A stretch of 35,961 nt of DNA from Candidatus Kerfeldbacteria bacterium CG_4_10_14_0_8_um_filter_42_10 (GTDB lineage: Bacteria > Patescibacteriota > Patescibacteriia > UM-FILTER-42-10): positions 1-35,961 of the forward strand of contig PFMD01000064.1 of assembly GCA_002784945.1 (NCBI GenBank), read 5' to 3'. The translations under genes and the position numbers were made by a program. A model generated the notes under the pieces. That model worked only from the letters and a program-made list of their open reading frames with translations. It was not told where the DNA came from and searched no databases. Positions 8,084 to 30,439 of this stretch are shown here, piece by piece (the first letter of the stretch is position 1; each line of letters starts with the position of its first letter).

Positions 8084-8254
8084 CTTGTTCTATTAATAAT
8101 TATGATAAAAGTTAGTCTTTATTTTAGCAAAAGAGTTACTTTTTAACAAGTTTTGACGCCGGGTTTATAAAATGATAAGGTGAAGATTCCCAAAACAAAG
8201 ATAATCAAAAAAAGTCCCTTCAAATACACGCTAAAGAAAGCGAGGTTAGTTGCT

Positions 8255-9763
8255 ATGTGTTCAATCTTCGGAGCGATTCCCTTAGAAGTTAAAGATCCCC
8301 TTGAAGTTCAGACATATACCATGATTGGTGCCAATTTTCTGCAACACCGTGGCCATGAATGGTATGGTCTGGCATTTTCCAATGGGAAGTTCTTGTGGAT
8401 TGAAAGGCGTTCCGGGTTGATCATATCATCACCAGACGACAGAGAGCTGGTAAGGCTAATTAAGGAAAATCAGCCTCAAATGATTATGTTTCAAACCCGC
8501 TTTTCTACCACAGGACCAAGTACATCCATTAACGCGCAACCCCAGTTCCTGCGTTTAAGGCAAGGAGCGATTGCTCTAGGTAGCAACGGAGACGTTTTCG
8601 ATTATACCAAGGAAAGAGAACGTTTAGAAAAAAGCGGATGTGATTTCCAAAGTCAGAATGACAGCGAGATATTGCTGCATCACATACTGCTCAATTCCGG
8701 GGATGACCCAGATAATATCCCTAAGGGGATTCAAAATCTCATGGGGAACATGCCCGCTACCTTCTCTTTCTGGCTCGCTACCGAAAAACGCGTGTATCTG
8801 GCGCGTGATCCTTACGGCAATCGCCCCCTGTATTATATGCAGGTAGGCGGTTACTTCATCTTCGCGTCGGAAGATTGCGCCCTGCTTGCAGTTTTAGAAG
8901 AGCGAGCGGAAGCCGGCTACGAAGACGGTACAGTCGAAATCAACCAGGTCCTTCCCGGAGAGATAATTGAAGTCAATCTGCACGGACCAGTGAATTACCT
9001 GAAAGGAGCAGATCCTAAAGCCATCCTGGCCCAGTGCACCTTCGAGAAAGTCTACTTCGCCCGACCGGACAGCAGAGTATTTGGTTCTTTGAAGCAGGGT
9101 CGACTCTGCTACAAAGTGTTGGTTTTGCCAGAAGGCGAAGACGATTACGTGATTCAAGTGCTGGATGATTCCGTGGAAGAGGTAGGCAGCTTCCGTTACC
9201 GGTTGGGAGAGAATTTGGGCGTAGAGAGTCCGGTAGAACAAGCGGATTGCGTAATTTCAGTTCCTATGTCGGGTGACTTTGCCGCATTAGGGTACGCTCA
9301 CAAAACCGGTACCGAATTCCAAATCGGACTGGTTCGCAATCCTTATTACACCAGAACATTCACCTCTCCTGGCAGAGAAAATCGGCAGAGGCTCGCCAGA
9401 CTCAAGTATCAACCAATGAGGGGTCTTTACGTTCGAGCAAAAAGAATCGTGGTAGTGGACGATTCTGTAATCTTTGCGACTACCCTTCAACGGTTAGCAC
9501 GCAAACTGAGAATAGCGGGCGCTCAAGAAGTGCATGGTCGTATAAGTTGCCCTCCGGTCAAATGCCCATGCCCTTATGGGATTGATATGTCTTCTAAGGG
9601 CCAGTTGCCTGCGGCAAGCATGTCCATGAAAGAAGTAGGGAATATGCTAAAATTGGACAGCTTGGCACATCTTTCCCTGGAAATGCTTCAGGCAGCTAAC
9701 GGTGCGTCAGCTAAGCATTATTGCTATGCTTGCTGGAACGGAGAGTTTCCAATCCATTACTAA
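8255..9763 (+). CDS. Amidophosphoribosyltransferase (PurF)-like: class II glutamine amidotransferase plus PRTase-like domain
   Basis: Start placed at MCSIFG (Cys2 nucleophile), not ORF-track start 8180; 'GLVRNPYYTRTFTSPGRENRQRLARLKYQPMRG', 'RIVVVDDSVIFATT', C-terminal 'CYACWNGEFP' as in Fe-S type PurF. Confidence 0.85.
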   Translation: MCSIFGAIPLEVKDPLEVQTYTMIGANFLQHRGHEWYGLAFSNGKFLWIERRSGLIISSPDDRELVRLIKENQPQMIMFQTRFSTTGPSTSINAQPQFLRLRQGAIALGSNGDVFDYTKERERLEKSGCDFQSQNDSEILLHHILLNSGDDPDNIPKGIQNLMGNMPATFSFWLATEKRVYLARDPYGNRPLYYMQVGGYFIFASEDCALLAVLEERAEAGYEDGTVEINQVLPGEIIEVNLHGPVNYLKGADPKAILAQCTFEKVYFARPDSRVFGSLKQGRLCYKVLVLPEGEDDYVIQVLDDSVEEVGSFRYRLGENLGVESPVEQADCVISVPMSGDFAALGYAHKTGTEFQIGLVRNPYYTRTFTSPGRENRQRLARLKYQPMRGLYVRAKRIVVVDDSVIFATTLQRLARKLRIAGAQEVHGRISCPPVKCPCPYGIDMSSKGQLPAASMSMKEVGNMLKLDSLAHLSLEMLQAANGASAKHYCYACWNGEFPIHY

Positions 9764-10530: not shown

Positions 10531-12498
10531 TCATGATTTTTTCAATTCCTTAATTTGGTCTCTGATAATGGCCGCTTTTTCGAATTCCAAATTTTTGGCG
10601 GCTAATTCCATCTGATTTTTCAAATCTTTAATCAAATGATTAATTTCATCGGGAGGAACCAGTTTAACATCCAATTTTAATACCTCTTTTTCCGCCAATT
10701 TAGCGCCGGCCAGCCTTTCCTCCTTAATTGCTTTTTGAATCGACTGGGGGGTGATATGGTGTTTTTGATTGTAAATTTCTTGAGACTTTCTTCTTCTTTT
10801 GGTTTCGGCAATCGCTCTTTTCATGGAATCAGTGATTTTATCGGCATACATTATTATATGCCCTTCCTGATGCCGGGCCGCGCGCCCCATGGTTTGAATC
10901 AGGGCCGTATCGCTTCTTAAGAATCCTTCTTTATCCGCATCTAGAATGGCGATGAGCGAAACTTCAGGCAGATCCAGCCCTTCCCGCAAAAGATTGATTC
11001 CGACCACCACATCGTAGGTGCCCAGGCGCAAATCCCGCAAAATTTCCAAACGTTCAAAAGTGTCTATTTCGGAATGAAGATAATGAACCGCAATCCCCAC
11101 TTCTTTCAAATATTCCGAGAGCTCTTCCGCCATCCTTTTGGTAAGAACGGTGACCAGCACGCGCTGATGCCGTTTCACTCTTTGCTGGATTTTATCCAGT
11201 AAGTCATCGATCTGATGCTGGGTCGGCTTTAATTCAATGGTCGGATCCAAAAGCCCGGTGGGGCGGATTAATTGTTCCGCTATTTGCTTGCTTTTTTTCT
11301 TTTCGTATTCCATCGGAGTGGCGGAAACGTAAATTACTTGATTGATTTTCTGGTCGAATTCGGCAAAAGTAAGCGGGCGGTTGTCCCGTGCGGCCGGAAG
11401 CCGGAACCCGTATTCCACCAAAATATTTTTGCGGGCGCGGTCGCCTTCGTACATGCCCCTGATTTGAGGAACGGTCATGTGGGATTCATCAATAAACATC
11501 AAAAAATCCTTAGGAAAATAATCTAAAAGCGTATAAGGAGGCTGGCCGGGCTTCCGGCCGTCAAAATAGCGGGAATAATTTTCGATTCCGTTGCAGTAAC
11601 CGGTTTCTTTGATCATTTCCAGGTCATAGCGGGTGCGCTGCTCTATTCTTTGAGCCTCAATCAGCTTGTTTTGTTTTTCAAAAAAACCCACTTGTTCTTT
11701 TAGGTCCGCTTTAATGTTTTTAAAAGCCAGCTCTTGTTTGTCAAAAGGGACTAAATAATGAGTGGTGGGAAAGATCATCACTTCTTTCAGATTTTGGACC
11801 GTTTCTCCGGTGAGTGAATCAATCTCTTTGATTTGTTCAATCTTATCGCCCCACATTTGAATTTGATAGGCATTTTGTTCCGAGTAAATGGGAAATATCT
11901 CAATTACCTCTCCTTTAATTCTAAACTTTCCTCGATCCAAATAATGATTGTTCCTCTGATACTGGATCTTAACTAAGTTTTCTAGTAAGCGCTTACGGTT
12001 GATTTTTGCCCCGACCGAAACAAAAATTCCTTCTTTCTGATATTCTTCCGGAGCGCCCAAACCATAAATGCAGGAAACCGATGCCACGATAATCACGTCT
12101 TTGCGCGAAATTAAAGACTGAGTGGAAGCGTGCCGCAAACGGTCAATTTCTTCGTTAATATCCGTCTCTTTTTCGATATAGGTGTCGGTGGTAGGCAGGT
12201 AAGCCTCGGGCTGGTAGTAGTCGTAGTATGAGACAAAATAATGCACCTCGTTTTTGGGGAAAAAGTCCCGAAACTCGGAAGCGAGTTGGGCAGCCAAGGT
12301 TTTATTATGAGAAATGACTAAAGTGGGCTTTTGGACCTGGGTAATAATATTGGCCATGGTAAAAGTTTTTCCCGAGCCGGTTACGCCTAAAAGCGTCTGG
12401 TCGCGATACTTTTTAGCCAGTCCTTTTACCAGTTGATCAATTGCCCTTGGTTGATCGCCTTTCGGCCTAAACTTTGATTGGAGTTTGAATTTATTCAT
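10531..12498 (-). CDS. uvrB: Excinuclease ABC subunit B
   Basis: GVTGSGKTFTMANII Walker A, YYDYYQPEAYLP, UVR motif at C terminus. Confidence 0.97.
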   Translation of the reverse strand: MNKFKLQSKFRPKGDQPRAIDQLVKGLAKKYRDQTLLGVTGSGKTFTMANIITQVQKPTLVISHNKTLAAQLASEFRDFFPKNEVHYFVSYYDYYQPEAYLPTTDTYIEKETDINEEIDRLRHASTQSLISRKDVIIVASVSCIYGLGAPEEYQKEGIFVSVGAKINRKRLLENLVKIQYQRNNHYLDRGKFRIKGEVIEIFPIYSEQNAYQIQMWGDKIEQIKEIDSLTGETVQNLKEVMIFPTTHYLVPFDKQELAFKNIKADLKEQVGFFEKQNKLIEAQRIEQRTRYDLEMIKETGYCNGIENYSRYFDGRKPGQPPYTLLDYFPKDFLMFIDESHMTVPQIRGMYEGDRARKNILVEYGFRLPAARDNRPLTFAEFDQKINQVIYVSATPMEYEKKKSKQIAEQLIRPTGLLDPTIELKPTQHQIDDLLDKIQQRVKRHQRVLVTVLTKRMAEELSEYLKEVGIAVHYLHSEIDTFERLEILRDLRLGTYDVVVGINLLREGLDLPEVSLIAILDADKEGFLRSDTALIQTMGRAARHQEGHIIMYADKITDSMKRAIAETKRRRKSQEIYNQKHHITPQSIQKAIKEERLAGAKLAEKEVLKLDVKLVPPDEINHLIKDLKNQMELAAKNLEFEKAAIIRDQIKELKKS

Positions 12499-12543
12499 GA
12501 GTAAAGGGGATTATATAACATTTTTGGAATTTGGTAAATCGTG

Positions 12544-12579
12544 CCCTGAAGGCGGACAAACGTTTGTCCGCCTTCAGGG
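12544..12579. repeat. 36-nt perfect palindrome containing the 28-nt unit GAAGGCGGACAAACGTTTGTCCGCCTTC (12548-12575)
   Basis: 18/18 pairs. Confidence 0.9.
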
Positions 12580-12642
12580 TCGTTGCCGTGCAAGGAAGTT
12601 AATTAAAGGTGTTATTTCAACAACCGATGCGCGACATATCGT

Positions 12643-12690
12643 AAGCCCTCGCTTGCCGCATGTGAAAGTAAGGGGGGGGGGCGAGGGCTT
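12643..12690. repeat. 10-bp inverted repeat AAGCCCTCGC/GCGAGGGCTT with G10 homopolymer abutting the right arm
   Basis: Exact arms 12643-12652 and 12681-12690; G run 12672-12681. Confidence 0.75.
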
Positions 12691-12710
12691 CCGCCTACCC
12701 ATTAAACATC

Positions 12711-12739
12711 TTGACAAAGTTCCCCGAATAGGATATTTT
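12711..12739 (+). promoter_or_regulatory. Sigma70-like promoter TTGACA-N17-TATTTT
   Basis: Consensus -35 and near-consensus -10 upstream of the 71-aa ORF. Confidence 0.7.
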
Positions 12740-12798
12740 TTATTATCATCAAATTACTAAATCCAGCACCTTGTCCTAATTTTCCAAAGGAAGCGACT

Positions 12799-13014
12799 AT
12801 GCGATTAGTTAATCAGCATCCGGTTCCAGTCTCTGACGCTGGTTGTAATTTCGTCAGAACCACCTTGGCGCCCAGCGGCCCCGAAGGCTATGCAGTACAT
12901 CGCGCTAGCAATCCATTTGGCACCGGTGACAATTGGCTCATGCTTGTCGGAACCAAAGAAGGCGCTGGAGAACCGTATCTCCGGAAACAGCCAGGCGTAA
13001 CAGTTCTAGAATAG
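12799..13014 (+). CDS. Hypothetical 71-aa protein
   Basis: Own promoter and terminator bracket the ORF; RBS-like AAAGGA upstream. Confidence 0.6.
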   Translation: MRLVNQHPVPVSDAGCNFVRTTLAPSGPEGYAVHRASNPFGTGDNWLMLVGTKEGAGEPYLRKQPGVTVLE

Positions 13015-13045
13015 CTTCCTCGTTCTTTACTTACGCTCTTTGCTC

Positions 13046-13080
13046 AAGGGGTTCCTGACAACAGGCTACCCCTTTTTCTT
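13046..13080 (+). terminator. Rho-independent terminator
   Basis: AAGGGGT...ACCCCTT with inner CCTG/CAGG pair and T-rich tail. Confidence 0.75.
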
Positions 13081-13128
13081 TAAATACTAAACGAGGAATT
13101 CCTGAGCTGGGAATCCTTATTAATTAGG

Positions 13129-13156
13129 TTGACAAACCGGTCTTTATTAGTAAAAT
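13129..13156 (+). promoter_or_regulatory. Promoter TTGACA-N16-TAAAAT upstream of the thiolase-like gene
   Basis: Consensus hexamers, spacing 16. Confidence 0.7.
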
Positions 13157-13193
13157 GTCACCATGGTCTTTAACAACCAGATTTCGTAGGCGG

Positions 13194-13219
13194 AGCCATG
13201 CACCGTCCGGTACATGGCT
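13194..13219 (+). promoter_or_regulatory. 5'-UTR hairpin AGCCATGcACCGtcCGGTaCATGGCT
   Basis: 11 base pairs with one C/A mismatch, inside the predicted ~140-nt leader. Confidence 0.55.
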
Positions 13220-13301
13220 GAGAGGGCGGTTTAGAATAAAAATTCTGAATTAGTCCTTAATTATCAAAATCCCCTTTGTTAAGGGAGAAATGGAGTAGTG
13301 G

Positions 13302-14552
13302 ATGAACAGAGTGGGAATTGTCGGTGCAGGCATAACGGAATGCCGCTCCCGATGGGTAGAAGCTACCTATTGGAAGCTGTTCCAAATGGCTGTGCGGGCA
13401 GCATTAGAGGATGCCAAAATGACCGCCGCGGAATTAGACGCGGTAGTTTACGGCATCTACAACGACATGTTTGAACACATGGCTATTCCGGAATCGGCCT
13501 TAACCGGCTGGATTAGCATGGGGCTCAAACCCGGAGTACGAGTAACCAACGGCGGCGCCACCGGCTTTTACGCCATGCGCGCTGCTTACATGGAAGTGGC
13601 CAGCGGCCTTTCCGATATCGTGCTGTGCGTCGGAGGCGAAAAAGCGACGGATTGCTTTGATCCTCAAAGTGGTACCCCCACGCCGGCGGTGGTAGGAGTT
13701 ATTGCCCAGAGCTGGGATCCGTTTTACGAGTATCCGCTGGGTGCCACCGCTTCCGATTCGTACATGGGAAAATGCATGGCCTACAATGACGCGTATCCTG
13801 GCGACATCGGCGACGGGCTGGTAAGGGCGCAGATGATTGAGATGCTGTGTCGTCAGGGTAATCGGAATCCTTTCGGTCAGCGCCGCAAGGAAACGGTTAC
13901 CGCTGAGCAGGTATTGGCTTCCCGTTGGATCATCGCGCCGTTTTTGCGCTTGCTGGAAGCATGCATGTACACCGAAGGCGCCGGCGCCCTGATTTTCGCC
14001 AACGAGCAGAAGACGCTGGAAATCTGCCAGCGCACCGGACGCCAGCCGATTTGGGTCAAAGGAGTGGGTGCCGCTAACGAACCGTACGCGGTCGGTCGCG
14101 GCAGCGATAACCTAATGGAACTTCCCCGAATCAAAAGCGACCATCTGGCCGCTTATCGGGCGTACGAAATGGCGGGTGTTCAGCCTTCCGACATTCAGAT
14201 CGTGGAAGTGCACGATGCCTTTGTGGCTCAGCTCATGATTACCATGGGAGAGCTGGGATTCGTGCTAATGGGCAAAACGCGCGCTCTGATTGACGATGGC
14301 GTTATGGCGGATATTCAAAAGCTCGGCGATGAAGGCCGGCCCGAACCAGGGCAGGTTTTGATCAATCCGTCCGGCGGGCTGATTTTCGGCGGGCACTTTG
14401 TGGGAGGCAGTAATATGTTTTCCACTTGGTCCGCTATCCGCGAAATGCGCCGTCGTCAGGTTCCCCTGTCGCTGGTGCACGGCACCGGCGCAATCAACGC
14501 CGCCTATGGCGGAGCCATGATCCTAGAGTTGGGAGAGGAGGTGAGAGCATGA
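13302..14552 (+). CDS. Thiolase-superfamily protein (SCP-x/Ltp2-like), nucleophilic Cys replaced
   Basis: GIVGAGITE..., 'RVTNGGATGFYAMRAAYMEVASGLSDIVLCVGGEK', 'VEVHDAF', 'NPSGGLIFGGHFVGG'. Confidence 0.9.
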   Translation: MNRVGIVGAGITECRSRWVEATYWKLFQMAVRAALEDAKMTAAELDAVVYGIYNDMFEHMAIPESALTGWISMGLKPGVRVTNGGATGFYAMRAAYMEVASGLSDIVLCVGGEKATDCFDPQSGTPTPAVVGVIAQSWDPFYEYPLGATASDSYMGKCMAYNDAYPGDIGDGLVRAQMIEMLCRQGNRNPFGQRRKETVTAEQVLASRWIIAPFLRLLEACMYTEGAGALIFANEQKTLEICQRTGRQPIWVKGVGAANEPYAVGRGSDNLMELPRIKSDHLAAYRAYEMAGVQPSDIQIVEVHDAFVAQLMITMGELGFVLMGKTRALIDDGVMADIQKLGDEGRPEPGQVLINPSGGLIFGGHFVGGSNMFSTWSAIREMRRRQVPLSLVHGTGAINAAYGGAMILELGEEVRA

Positions 14553-15550
14553 GCCAGAATCAAACCGTTATCCCGCAGGAATTCAATTTGCCCGCGGGAG
14601 TCAGGCCGGTTACCGGTCTAGACGGCATTCCTTGCCTGGAGCTGGCCACTCAAATGACCACTCTTTACTGGCAGACCTATGGCGAACAGTCGCGGTTTTT
14701 CCAGGCGCTAATTGAAGGTCGGCTGATCGGCGCCAAATGCCCCCAGTGCCAAATGGTGCTGGTGCCGCCCATGACCTGGAACTGCCCGGATTGCGGTTTC
14801 ACAGATATGGAAGAAGTTGTCCTGCCTCATCATGGCCTGCTGGCGGCAACCGCTCCCATCACTATCTTTCCGCCCGCCGGTCAGCACGGCAATGCGCCTT
14901 ATGCGAGGGGCTATGTGGATGTGGCGGTGGACGTCGCCAAAGCATCGTTCCTGCCGGCGCGGCTAATTACTACCACCGGGCTGCCGCGTCCGGGCATCTT
15001 CGTGAAAGGGGTCAAGCTGAAGCTGGTTTTCAAAGATGAACGGGAGGGACGCATCACCGACATCTTCTGGGTGCCTTGGGACGAGATTCCAGAGGGCTTA
15101 AGAGATATCGAACCTCTTCTGGCTTCTCAGCTTCAGTTTGAAGATCCTAAACCGCCCGTGATTAAGCGACCATTTGAAGAAGTTTTTACCGCGGTGCGAG
15201 ATTTAGCCGTCAAGGCAGTAAGGAGCCCACGAGCGGTAGAAAACCTGAAAGCGGTTGGTACCCGTCGGATCGGCGTTTGGGTAGGTGGAGGAGAATTCAC
15301 CTTATCCATCCAGAATGGGTGTTTAGAGGTGAAGAGAGTATCCGACCCTGGTGTTGACTTCGTCATTCAAGCCGATGATCCCAATGTATTTCTCAAATGG
15401 GCGAATGGCGGTTCGTTAAGCGACCCAGCGGCAGAGGGTAGTCTCTGGCTTCCGAATACTGAGGCATTTGGCATACTACCCGCTTTAGACCGGGTGCCGC
15501 GTTCGGTCCGGCGCGACGAGGGTGAAGGCAAACTGTCGCCTGAATCCTGA
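14549..15550 (+). CDS. DUF35-type Zn-ribbon/OB-fold protein fused to C-terminal SCP2 sterol-carrier-like domain
   Basis: CPQCQMVLVPPMTWNCPDCG zinc ribbon; C-terminal SCP2-like segment; ATGA overlap with upstream gene and GGAGG RBS support start at 14549. Confidence 0.82.
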   Translation: MSQNQTVIPQEFNLPAGVRPVTGLDGIPCLELATQMTTLYWQTYGEQSRFFQALIEGRLIGAKCPQCQMVLVPPMTWNCPDCGFTDMEEVVLPHHGLLAATAPITIFPPAGQHGNAPYARGYVDVAVDVAKASFLPARLITTTGLPRPGIFVKGVKLKLVFKDEREGRITDIFWVPWDEIPEGLRDIEPLLASQLQFEDPKPPVIKRPFEEVFTAVRDLAVKAVRSPRAVENLKAVGTRRIGVWVGGGEFTLSIQNGCLEVKRVSDPGVDFVIQADDPNVFLKWANGGSLSDPAAEGSLWLPNTEAFGILPALDRVPRSVRRDEGEGKLSPES

Positions 15551-15590
15551 ACAATGAATCAGTAGTTTCAAACATTGAACCTTAACCCAC

Positions 15591-15626
15591 GGGGCGTAGC
15601 GAAAGTTGCGCCCCCTTTTCTTTTTT
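15591..15626 (+). terminator. Rho-independent terminator
   Basis: GGGGCG...CGCCCC followed by CTTTTCTTTTTT. Confidence 0.85.
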
Positions 15627-15662
15627 GCTTGCTTATCTTAATTTCCTCTGCCATAATCTAAT

Positions 15663-15765
15663 TAGCTTCTTAGGTTGGTAGCTTATTAGCTTTTTAGTTA
15701 AGCTATCTACAAGAAGTCTAAGAAGCTAAAAAGCTACAAGCTACAAGCTAATCTTCTACAAGCTA
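15663..15765. repeat. AGCTTCTTAG/CTAAGAAGCT hairpin-repeat region
   Basis: AGCTTCTTAG 15664-15673 and CTAAGAAGCT 15718-15727, plus multiple AGCTACAAGCT/TAGCTTATTAGCT units. Confidence 0.7.
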
Positions 15766-15770
15766 AAGAC

Positions 15771-16355
15771 ATGATCACCTATCTTAAAGGAAAGGTAAAA
15801 TATAAGAACAAAACCTACATTGTGATTGACGTTCATGATGTGGGGTACCGGGTGTTTGTGGCACCTCAATTCCAAGACAAAATTAAAGAAGATCAGGCGG
15901 TTGAATTGTACACTTTCCAGCATGTGGGAGAAGATAAAACGGAGCTTTACGGCTTTGAACAGATTGACGAATTGGAATTCTTCGAGCAATTAATCCACAT
16001 TTCCGGGATCGGGCCCAAATCCGCTTTAGGGATTCTAACTCAGGCCAAAGTGGACGAAGTTAAGCGGGCGGTAATCCACGGTGATTCCTCGCTACTAACC
16101 AAGGTTTCAGGGATCGGAAAGAAAACCGCCGAAAGGATTATTCTGGAATTAAAAAATAAAATTGATGTTTCCGATAAAGAAGCCAAGGAATTTCTAAAAG
16201 GAGGAATTAAGGATGATGTCGAGACCATCGACGCCCTGGTCAGTTTGGGGTATTCGCTTAGCGAAGCGCGCGAAGCATTAAAGCTGATCCCCGAAGAAGC
16301 CACTGCCATTGAGCAAAAAGTCAGGGCCGCTCTTAAGTTACTAGGAAAAAAATAA
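15771..16355 (+). CDS. ruvA: Holliday junction branch migration protein RuvA
   Basis: MITYLKGKV...VGYRVFV, helix-hairpin-helix 'SGIGPKSALGIL' and 'SGIGKKTAERIILELK'. Confidence 0.95.
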   Translation: MITYLKGKVKYKNKTYIVIDVHDVGYRVFVAPQFQDKIKEDQAVELYTFQHVGEDKTELYGFEQIDELEFFEQLIHISGIGPKSALGILTQAKVDEVKRAVIHGDSSLLTKVSGIGKKTAERIILELKNKIDVSDKEAKEFLKGGIKDDVETIDALVSLGYSLSEAREALKLIPEEATAIEQKVRAALKLLGKK

Positions 16356-20451: not shown

Positions 20452-21246
20452 ATGTTTAGATATCGTTATAGCCTCCTAATTGGAATAGGAGTTTTTTTAT
20501 TTGCTTCAATGACTCTTGCCTCTACTTGGAAATCGCCAAACTATCCGTATACTGATGATTTAAAAATAGGTAATTGCACATTGATAAATACCATAGCGGA
20601 AAAAGACGCCACGCATATTTACACGCTTAATCCTGGTTTTACCGTTCAGTTAAATTCTGCATATATTAATTATTGGAATCGTAATGCCCGTTGCGACGAA
20701 TTGCAGTTTCACGTTGATCACAATACATCTCTTACTACTTTGAATAATTGGCTTGGTCAAATAGCTGTTAGCTGGTACAAAAATATTAGTGCCACCCACC
20801 TTAATCATCAGACAATTAGCACTTCAAGGCATGAATGGTTTTACATTGACGAAAACGGAGTACACAGAATACCTGATATATTAACGGCTTGGTCATTTGG
20901 TCTATTATTGGACGATCGTTTTTCCGTAAATCCTTCACTTACTGACGCTTTTTACAATAATGTGACTATTGGCACTCCATTAAATTTCAATAATGGTCAG
21001 TACAAAACTCAGATTAATAATATTTGGAAAAATAACGCTTCTATAACTGACTCTGGTTTGCCCGCTACCCTTATAACAAATCTTAATTACTTAGATGCTT
21101 ATCATTATATAGGCCATCCTTTTGGCTATAATGGTGTTTTTGATAATTGTCAGTTAGATGGTTGGAATTTGGAAAGTCGCGTTTACGAAAATCTTCTGGA
21201 CTGGTCCTGGATGCTGCGTAACCACGACTGTCCGCTGGCAAGTTAG
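20452..21246 (+). CDS. Secreted hypothetical protein, paralogue 1
   Basis: Signal peptide; shares NARCDExQFHVDHNT, STSRHEWFY and C-terminal DWSWMxRNxxCPLAS with the next ORF. Confidence 0.8.
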   Translation: MFRYRYSLLIGIGVFLFASMTLASTWKSPNYPYTDDLKIGNCTLINTIAEKDATHIYTLNPGFTVQLNSAYINYWNRNARCDELQFHVDHNTSLTTLNNWLGQIAVSWYKNISATHLNHQTISTSRHEWFYIDENGVHRIPDILTAWSFGLLLDDRFSVNPSLTDAFYNNVTIGTPLNFNNGQYKTQINNIWKNNASITDSGLPATLITNLNYLDAYHYIGHPFGYNGVFDNCQLDGWNLESRVYENLLDWSWMLRNHDCPLAS

Positions 21247-21267
21247 GTTTATTAATATCAATTCATT

Positions 21268-22053
21268 ATGAAAAAAATCATTTCAGTAACGTCAATTTTA
21301 TTTGTTTTATTTTTGGTTTCAGTAAAACAAAGCAATGCCTCCCCATGGATACCGCCTCAAGGTTTAGGCACTGAATTCTTAGAAGCCGGCGACTGCATTT
21401 TAGTTAATACGGTAGCGGAAAAAGATGCTAATCATGTGTATACTTTAAATCCCGACAATACAAGAGCGATTAATCAATCTTACGTTATGCGTTGGAGCAG
21501 AAATGCCAGGTGCGATGAAATCCAATTTCATGTCGATCACAATACGCCTATTAGCGTATTAAACAACTGGCTTGATAATGTCGCATACGGTTGGTACGCA
21601 AATCTCGGAAGTACTCATTTTAAAGGACAGACAGTAAGTACTTCCCGCCACGAATGGTTTTATGTCGATCAAAATGGAATATTGCAGCGAATACCGGATT
21701 GGTTAACAAGTTTATCTTGGGGTTTGCTTGTCAGTGACCGCCTTTCCGTTTCGCCCTATCATGCAGACAAGTTTTATGAGTTTGTAACCATAGGTCCACC
21801 TCTCGGTTTTAATGACGGTCAATACGCCGTTATAATAAATAACATTTGGAAGAATGGGAGTACGGATTATACTGGTTTGCCGCCTCGGCTTGCGGATGAA
21901 TTTAGCCGTCCAACTTACCTGACATGCAGTGATTATTTTTGTGGAATATTTGAAGCTTGCGAATATCAATCTAGTTTTCCTGGTGATCCGTATTATAATC
22001 TTTTTGACTGGTCCTGGATGATGCGCAATCCTGGCTGTCCGCTGGCAAGTTAA
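21268..22053 (+). CDS. Secreted hypothetical protein, paralogue 2
   Basis: Signal peptide; colinear homology to the preceding ORF. Confidence 0.8.
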   Translation: MKKIISVTSILFVLFLVSVKQSNASPWIPPQGLGTEFLEAGDCILVNTVAEKDANHVYTLNPDNTRAINQSYVMRWSRNARCDEIQFHVDHNTPISVLNNWLDNVAYGWYANLGSTHFKGQTVSTSRHEWFYVDQNGILQRIPDWLTSLSWGLLVSDRLSVSPYHADKFYEFVTIGPPLGFNDGQYAVIINNIWKNGSTDYTGLPPRLADEFSRPTYLTCSDYFCGIFEACEYQSSFPGDPYYNLFDWSWMMRNPGCPLAS

Positions 22054-29399: not shown

Positions 29400-29530
29400 A
29401 ACCAGTTCTTTTATTCCCGTTCTTTTTTATATGAATATATAGAAAAACCGCAGTACCAAACAGTTACAATCAACCACCTGAAACCCCGCCAGCCGCCGTG
29501 CGCCGCTGGCAGGCAATGAATGGAGGAAGA

Positions 29531-30439
29531 ATGAGTCAACAAAACATGAGCATGGAAGCGTTCCTGTCACGAACCAGCTTCGGTCTTATCTTAAGGGTAT
29601 TTGCCCAGAAGGAGGCCGACATTTCCAATCGGATTGAAATGGTTCGCGAATTAGTGGAACGGGCAGCCGGTGTATCGGTGTTTGGTCATCGCTTTCTGAA
29701 AGCAATTGACGTGCTGGTCTGGGCGGACAACCGCTACGAGTCAGATTGTGGAAAAACCACGTCGGCTTTGCGCAAAGCAGTGCCCAAGAAAGTAAACGGT
29801 GTACTGGTACCGATCAGTGAAGTTCGCCACGGAGATTTGTTCTGTGGCATTCTAAACCATGGCATTGGTTTGCAGTCGCGCCGGGGCATAGACTACAGTA
29901 TGATTGTCTCACCCGAAGCGTTCAGCTACCTGAACACCGAAACTACGGATCAAATGGTATTTGCCGCGACAAAAGGTGCCCTGGCCGTTGGTGTGGCGAT
30001 TAACGAATTGACCCAGTCCATTCTTGAAGGTCGGATCGCAAACACTTTCGCCATGTGGCATAACCTCTCCTTGCTTACCGTGGGCGGATTCGATCTGCGT
30101 GCTGCCAAACCGATTGCTGACGACCGTATTGCTGAATATGTGCGCGGTTGGCATCCAGACAAAGGCGAAGTTTTTTACCAAATTGCCGGCGTGGAGGAAG
30201 TAATTCCCCTGGCTCGCCTTGCCGAGACTTATGGACCATGTATTGCGCCAATTATGCCGCAAGGCGAAGGGGTGCAACGTTACGTGGTTCCGGATCCCAT
30301 CAAGAGTCCTGAGCTCTATCTCCGCCATGTTTCCAAAATGGGAACAAAGCTGGAGCGTCAATCCCATCATCTTGCCCAAATCGGATTTGATCTAACTTAC
30401 CTAAAGGGCGGAGTGATGCCGGATTACCGCACTGTCTAA
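29531..30439 (+). CDS. Hypothetical protein (302 aa), no family recognised with confidence
   Basis: ATG 29531 preceded by GGAGG (29522-29526); ORF-track start 29498 lacks comparable RBS. Confidence 0.75.
   Translation: MSQQNMSMEAFLSRTSFGLILRVFAQKEADISNRIEMVRELVERAAGVSVFGHRFLKAIDVLVWADNRYESDCGKTTSALRKAVPKKVNGVLVPISEVRHGDLFCGILNHGIGLQSRRGIDYSMIVSPEAFSYLNTETTDQMVFAATKGALAVGVAINELTQSILEGRIANTFAMWHNLSLLTVGGFDLRAAKPIADDRIAEYVRGWHPDKGEVFYQIAGVEEVIPLARLAETYGPCIAPIMPQGEGVQRYVVPDPIKSPELYLRHVSKMGTKLERQSHHLAQIGFDLTYLKGGVMPDYRTV

Follow-up and report, generated by a model that had tools for sequence, protein, structure and literature searches.

Two genes on the forward strand, lying between uvrB and ruvA, are described here from a window of 35,961 nucleotides (the whole stretch of DNA that was analysed). 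The first encodes P0001, a thiolase-fold protein, and the second encodes P0002, in which a DUF35 part is joined to an SCP2 lipid-binding domain. The stop codon of the first gene and the start codon of the second overlap in the sequence ATGA (14549-14552) as determined by an ORF check. The coordinates of the genes, domains and motifs are included in Table 1. Promoter-like sites numbered 5 compared with 2.7 +/- 1.7 in shuffles. A search for Rfam elements in the window gave no hit, which leaves a riboswitch 5' of the pair unsupported. A perfect 36-base palindrome (CCCTGAAGGCGGACAAAC/GTTTGTCCGCCTTCAGGG) is located at 12544-12579, immediately upstream of uvrB. Elsewhere, the window encodes a class II glutamine amidotransferase (GATase_6/7; 8180-9763) with a PurF-like-looking C-terminal part, which is retained in a same-genus genome (L092), two similar tandem secreted-looking proteins of 264 and 261 aa (20452-22053) without a Pfam match, and a 313-aa ORF (29498-30439) that also has no Pfam match and whose GC content of ~51% is above that of its neighbours.

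Table 1. Features of the gene pair, with positions in the window
Feature	Positions	Strand	Basis
Promoter-like TTGACA-16-TAAAAT in AT-rich DNA upstream of the pair	13129..13156	+	Consensus match only
P0001, thiolase-fold protein without catalytic cysteines, 416 aa	13302..14552	+	ORF, Pfam, AF2/Foldseek
GGATG, residues 84-88, Gly85 at the nucleophilic-Cys position	13551..13565	+	Invariant in 53/53 full-length homologues
Cys118, in an insertion absent from most compared thiolases	13653..13655	+	Invariant in 53/53; inside low-confidence loop 117-152
HDAF, residues 304-307	14211..14222	+	Invariant in 53/53
GH, residues 364-365, thiolase active-site His retained	14391..14396	+	His365 invariant; at the TcLtp2 Tyr344 position
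HGTG loop, residues 393-396, without Cys	14478..14489	+	Invariant in 53/53; joint alignment
P0002, DUF35-SCP2 partner, 333 aa	14549..15550	+	ORF; AF2 model mean pLDDT 91
DUF35 part of P0002, zinc ribbon and OB fold	14681..15148 (outer limits approximate)	+	Invariant Cys, zf-ChsH2, Foldseek
SCP2 lipid-binding domain of P0002, ~residues 205-325	15161..15523 (limits approximate)	+	PF02036 in homologues, Foldseek
Terminator-like stem, 10 pairs then a T-rich tail, directly 3' of the pair	15591..15614	+	Consensus match only

P0001 matches the thiolase N and C domains of Pfam. Its AF2 model has a mean pLDDT of 83.9, with low confidence in the loop 117-152, and the best PDB match in Foldseek is the archaeal ACAT 6et9 (TM 0.80/0.85). 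No NCBIfam model reached its cut-off for P0001, the best being PRK06064 (170 bits, with the cut-off at 420), and the models that reach the family are generic 'thiolase domain-containing protein' models, all under their cut-offs. For comparison, the sequences of TcLtp2 and CtSal were taken from PDB alignments, in which the numbering gives Y294/Y344 for TcLtp2. In the nucleophile loop of P0001, RVTNGGATG, Gly85 aligns with the catalytic cysteine of the archaeal ACAT 6esq (RVEAACASG) and the SCP2-thiolase 6hsj (NVNNNCSTG), and the loop is aligned with CASG/CSTG of thiolases and with the GG of Ltp2 and Sal. The second cysteine of the SCP2 and archaeal thiolases (HDCF) is missing, as P0001 has HDAF instead, a motif that by itself is also present in the Cys-bearing thiolases 7yvy and BbsB. 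In the joint alignment, His304 occupies the tyrosine position of Ltp2 (YDHF) and Sal (YDCY) and Ala306 the cysteine position of HDCF, while NPSGG...GGH is retained. The sequence-only reading had described a replaced nucleophile, a missing second cysteine and retained HD and NPSGG...GH elements, and the alignment confirms this; the column that could have held a cysteine after all holds Gly85. Of the features of thiolases (EC 2.3.1.9/16), P0001 therefore has the fold and the histidine of the GHP motif and lacks both the nucleophilic and the second cysteine.

The counterparts of the HGTG loop are SGTG in CtSal, AGTG in TcLtp2 and HGTG in 4u4e, whereas thiolases differ (HN[IVL]G). Similarly, the GG nucleophile loop is common to Ltp2, Sal and 4u4e, whereas most thiolases have ACASG. 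Judged by these aligned residues, the active site of the family is a mosaic that combines aldolase-like GG/GTG loops with thiolase histidines where the aldolases have tyrosine or cysteine. An acyl-enzyme at the usual position would be impossible because there is no nucleophilic cysteine, which would exclude classical thiolysis or Claisen chemistry there. If P0001 works as an enzyme, it would use neither the classical thiolase mode nor the known aldolase dyads. Cys118 is a possible candidate for a relocated active residue.

The zinc ribbon of P0002 (C64-x2-C67-x11-C79-x2-C82) is followed by an OB fold, as in DUF35 proteins (PF12172/PF01796), and Cys64, 67, 79 and 82 are invariant in 50/50 homologues. 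P0002 itself is under the PF12172 cut-off (20.3 vs 23.2 bits), and zf-ChsH2 matches in 46 of the 50 homologues (E<=0.1). A Foldseek search with the AF2 model determined that the closest structures to the DUF35 part are 9myr_B (Shy DUF35) and 6ok1_B (ChsH2 DUF35). The C-terminal part resembles SCP2 structures, among them UbiJ-SCP2 and AF1534 (Foldseek probability 1.00 to several, E ~1e-3), and PF02036 matches in 24/50 homologues (E<=0.1), P0002 itself being without a match. The overlapping gene had been read from its letters as a Zn-ribbon/OB DUF35 protein with an SCP2 domain; the ORFs, the four cysteines and the fold matches agree with this, and the C-terminal domain, for which a different identity would have counted against the proposal, is SCP2 by both the PF02036 matches of the homologues and the Foldseek matches. 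DUF35-SCP2 fusions as such were already known in 2010 (PMC2954200).

A scan of one genome per species found 57 related loci in Desulfobacterota/Myxococcota, Chloroflexota, Bacillota, Acidobacteriota, Bacteroidota, Planctomycetota, Zixibacteria, Schekmanbacteria, Rokubacteria, Elusimicrobia, Hydrogenedentota, Actinomycetes and Magasanikbacteria. The DUF35-SCP2 gene is directly 3' in nearly all of them, the exceptions being mostly loci that end near the pair. The 53 full-length P0001 homologues span 46-80% identity, and all 53 have GGATG, HDAF, GGL..GH and HGTG; Cys221 is invariant in all of them and ~80 further residues are also invariant across many phyla. Between the window and the Magasanikbacteria copy the thiolase chain is more conserved (80% identity, dN 0.14) than P0002 (56%, dN 0.39), and the dN/dS between these two Patescibacteria copies of P0001 is ~0.14/1.9. 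The invariant motifs together with this ratio indicate that the Cys-less site is under selection, and because the same residues occur in 53/53 homologues, the loss of cysteine is due neither to chance nor to sequencing error. A pseudogene with a chance loss of cysteine was rejected on the same grounds. No relatives were found in viral contigs, and plasmids held distant thiolases only (387 records, all <60% identity) and none for P0002.

In the maximum-likelihood tree, in which several outgroup rows are long branches, the family forms one clade with full support, apart from the archaeal ACATs, the SCP2-thiolases and the Ltp2/Sal/4u4e group. The best tree places the family elsewhere than with Ltp2/Sal (6ok1, 9myr, 4u4e), and forcing this grouping was not rejected (p-AU 0.30). 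The phylogeny with Ltp2, SCP-type thiolases and archaeal ACAT that had been suggested as a check therefore gives the family a clade of its own, with a joining to Ltp2/Sal still compatible with the data. New in this analysis are the conservation of the two genes as a family, the mosaic character of the active site, and the passage of the pair into Patescibacteria.

The pair in Patescibacteria is a horizontal acquisition from an unrelated bacterium, as it has a GC content of 57% in surroundings of ~42% and sits in a slot occupied by different genes in a same-genus genome (G001). There, uvrB and ruvA are syntenic with 78-89% nucleotide identity, and the slot is filled by glutamine synthetase and one further gene. 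The space between uvrB and ruvA (window 12498-15771; L092) is variable, with the pair here and glutamine synthetase plus a 174-aa ORF in the same-genus genome. None of 94 further genomes that were sampled as relatives, same-genus and same-family ones included, had the pair, and it was present in 2/380 Patescibacteria genomes sampled, namely this one and a Magasanikbacterium whose copy is 80% identical. The Magasanikbacteria copy is also a high-GC island (65% vs 41%), and the two copies are sisters with full support in the maximum-likelihood tree. Thirty other Patescibacteria gave distant matches only, and the five of these put in the tree are thiolases of archaeal type that retain the cysteine. 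Relatives at 72-75% identity come from Myxococcota, Bacteroidota, Zixibacteria, Planctomycetota and Schekmanbacteria. Of the earlier suggestion that the unit is host-derived, the foreign origin stands, given the GC content and the slot; none of these groups is indicated as the cell's host. A high-GC, foreign-looking 381-aa ORF without a Pfam match lies 360 bases 3' of the pair on the AT-rich Magasanikbacteria contig (L020:10619-11764).

The gene content of the genome was searched family by family. CoA-transferase, acyl-CoA dehydrogenase and aldehyde:ferredoxin oxidoreductase (AFOR) had no match in either Patescibacteria genome, and enoyl-CoA hydratase had none in this one, so the expectation of a genome lacking lipid catabolism holds for the beta-oxidation genes searched for. 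With these genes and AFOR missing, no substrate supply is visible in the Patescibacteria genomes. One acetyl-CoA synthetase-like gene is present in this genome. No other thiolase-like gene was found in it, so a heterodimer with an intact thiolase is unlikely here. No HMGCS gene is adjacent to the pair, and PF02797, sought in the genome, had no match. On another contig (L089:1219-3694; G000 contig C58), an aldehyde-dehydrogenase-like N-terminus is joined in frame to a FabD-like C-terminus and followed by a FabG-like gene; this join is a possible misassembly or contamination in this genome.

In other bacteria, the genes adjoining the pair are rich in those for CoA-transferase, acyl-CoA dehydrogenase, acyl-CoA ligase, enoyl-CoA hydratase, 3-hydroxyacyl-CoA dehydrogenase, MaoC and related proteins. 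Of 111 candidate neighbouring proteins, 46 were scanned, with likely spurious ORFs left out. CoA-type genes and AFOR numbered 44 at a distance of up to 1.5 kb from the pair, 42 of them on its strand, vs 13 beyond 4 kb (7 and 6 by strand) over similar lengths of DNA. Some of the query genes were themselves taken from the neighbours, which biases the count, though the difference between strands is affected less. These neighbourhoods support the proposed link to CoA thioesters in other hosts, and no isoprenoid link, which had also been proposed, was found. AFOR is encoded 3' of the pair at three loci (L026, L027, L033). At L026:4510-12274, the genes run from a second Cys-less thiolase through DUF35, MaoC and 3-hydroxyacyl-CoA dehydrogenase to the pair and then AFOR, which is the order expected for hydration, retro-aldol cleavage and aldehyde oxidation and is the main positive hint of the chemistry. 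AFOR in this position fits a retro-aldol (or aldol) CoA lyase because it would take the aldehyde product. The second Cys-less thiolase-like gene at L026 differs from P0001, with GGATP and with LLGPY replacing HDCF, and has its own DUF35 gene. In an Actinomycetes MAG (L087:1492-3807), two adjacent thiolase-like genes have altered active sites (STAEGDG with HDAF, and TGGCTG with YLPY), both without the GH histidine. In a Bacteroidetes MAG (L019:5768-10314), the homologous pair is also beside uvrB in a different orientation, perhaps by coincidence.

We propose, with a confidence just short of even, that the pair is a heteromeric CoA-thioester C-C lyase of the retro-aldol or aldol type in which histidine replaces the tyrosine of Ltp2/Sal. 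By homology to Ltp2-ChsH2, Sal-Shy and archaeal ACAT-DUF35, the thiolase-fold subunit would be dimeric and capped by DUF35. The SCP2 domain, tethered via DUF35, would bind or deliver a lipid-like acyl-CoA, whose CoA thioester would be held in the thiolase pocket. His304, at the place of the catalytic tyrosine of Ltp2/Sal, may then take the proton of the beta-hydroxyl, and cleavage of the C-C bond would yield an aldehyde together with the enolate of an acyl-CoA, which the backbone loops GG and GTG would hold. His365 may help to hold or protonate the enolate, and the reverse aldol addition would be equally possible. This lyase reading is supported by the invariance of the motif residues in the 53 homologues, by GG/GTG loops that match Ltp2, Sal and (for GTG) 4u4e but not thiolases, by a DUF35 part structurally closest to those of both aldolase complexes, and by the CoA-type genes and, at three loci, AFOR that adjoin the pair. 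Additionally, the characterised Cys-less members of the superfamily that are paired with DUF35 are retro-aldolases, and CtSal has glycine at the nucleophile position (PMC12329534). It is weakened because the proven catalytic residues of Ltp2 (Tyr294, Tyr344) and Sal (Tyr302, Cys304) are absent, because the best tree does not group the family with the aldolases even though joining them is not rejected, because the loci with AFOR are few in number and perhaps of a single lineage, because the Patescibacteria genomes show no substrate supply, and because of the partly circular choice of neighbour queries.

Other explanations have to be weighed against the lyase. The absence of both catalytic cysteines and of the aldolase tyrosines would also suit a non-enzymatic acyl-CoA-binding scaffold or regulatory subunit that presents an SCP2-held lipid to other enzymes of the operon, and a role in the non-covalent delivery of acyl-CoA has been suggested for DUF35 proteins, which are known to be fused to SCP2 (PMC2954200). 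However, HDAF, GH, HGTG, GGATG and ~80 other residues are invariant across many phyla, and both Patescibacteria pairs stand without the expected partner enzymes, which leaves this role unlikely. A thiolase whose nucleophile has moved to the invariant Cys118 or Cys221 would be quite unlikely. Cys118 lies in a family-specific insertion and its place is not fixed by the model, as the loop is of low confidence, but Cys221 recurs in Ltp2 and in SCP2-thiolases without being reported as their nucleophile, and the GG at the normal site is the motif of characterised aldolases. We consider very unlikely a Cys-independent decarboxylase or hydrolase of a beta-keto or malonyl-type CoA ester that uses a thiolase-derived enolate-stabilising pocket. 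His304 and His365 do match residues retained in thiolases, and the Cys-less relative TbSLP decarboxylates malonyl-CoA, although very slowly; CtSal, in contrast, showed no activity of this kind (PMC12329534), and the gene neighbourhoods examined gave no pointer to malonyl-CoA or carboxylated substrates.

It might also be asked whether the pair belongs to this genome at all, since it is a GC-rich segment in AT-richer flanks and the contig mentioned above looks chimeric. The uvrB/ruvA flanks are, however, syntenic with the same-genus genome, in which the slot has different genes, the sister copy is in an independent Magasanikbacteria contig where it is likewise a high-GC island, and promoter-like and terminator-like signals frame the pair, so an assembly or contamination artefact is highly improbable.

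To our knowledge, the characterised Cys-less thiolase-fold aldolases come so far only from the degradation of steroid side chains. The known chemistry of the fold would be broadened by a conserved family whose active site differs and which occurs in many, mostly anaerobic or subsurface, lineages, and its recognition would help to put right annotations in which such genomes are assigned a thiolase. It also raises the question of how one imported CoA enzyme is used in a Patescibacteria cell without beta-oxidation.

Several known systems share features with the pair. The archaeal ACAT-DUF35 proteins (ACAT/HMGCS complex, 6esq/6et9) are the best sequence and structure match and have a separate DUF35 partner and the HD and GH motifs, but they retain two catalytic cysteines where P0001 has none, their DUF35 protein is without SCP2, and they belong to a separate clade. 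SCP2-thiolase/SCP-x also combines a thiolase fold with an SCP2 lipid-binding domain, but the cysteines are kept (NNCSTG, HDCF) and SCP2 is on the thiolase chain rather than on the DUF35 chain. The benzoylsuccinyl-CoA thiolase BbsAB (7pxp) has a DUF35 partner and the HDAF motif, whereas BbsB keeps the nucleophilic cysteine and BbsA is without an SCP2 domain. ST0096 of Sulfolobus tokodaii (4yzo) and TbSLP (5ab4-5ab7) are thiolase-like and lack the nucleophilic cysteine, as P0001 does; ST0096 has serine at the nucleophile position and HDMA, TbSLP has YDCF, and neither is known to be paired with DUF35-SCP2.

The closest parallels are the two aldolase complexes, whose catalytic residues are Tyr294 (YDHF) and Tyr344 in TcLtp2 and Tyr302 and Cys304 in CtSal (PMC12329534). 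Ltp2-ChsH2 (TcLtp2, 6ok1) has a thiolase fold, GG without a nucleophilic cysteine, a GTG C-terminal loop and a DUF35 partner. P0001 differs in having HDAF/GH (His304/His365) in place of the two tyrosines, ChsH2 carries MaoC where P0002 carries SCP2, and Ltp2 and the P0001 family are separate clades in the best tree. The likeness to Ltp2/ChsH2 seen in the sequence-only reading accordingly stands for the Cys-less fold and the DUF35 partner, but an Ltp2/Sal-type aldolase is less well supported, given the His, His and Ala at the catalytic positions, the separate clade in the best tree, and SCP2 instead of MaoC. The Sal-Shy bile-acid aldolase (CtSal, 9myr) has glycine at the nucleophile position, a GGA loop and an [SH]GTG loop, and Shy is the closest DUF35 fold to P0002, but Tyr302/Cys304 (YDCY) correspond to His304/Ala306 in P0001, and the zinc ribbon is Cys3His in Shy and C4 in P0002. 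With catalytic residues that differ from theirs, P0001 was not assigned to Ltp2 or Sal; the family probably resembles them in activity, yet it lacks their catalytic residues and is not filed as a member. More tentatively than the lyase activity itself, we suggest that the family may represent a third type of CoA lyase with the thiolase fold, alongside Ltp2 (Tyr/Tyr) and Sal (Tyr/Cys) but distinct from both, with a His/His (or relocated Cys118) site and an SCP2-carrying DUF35 subunit, that would act in CoA-thioester pathways in many phyla and has entered Patescibacteria without beta-oxidation as a self-contained cassette of two genes.
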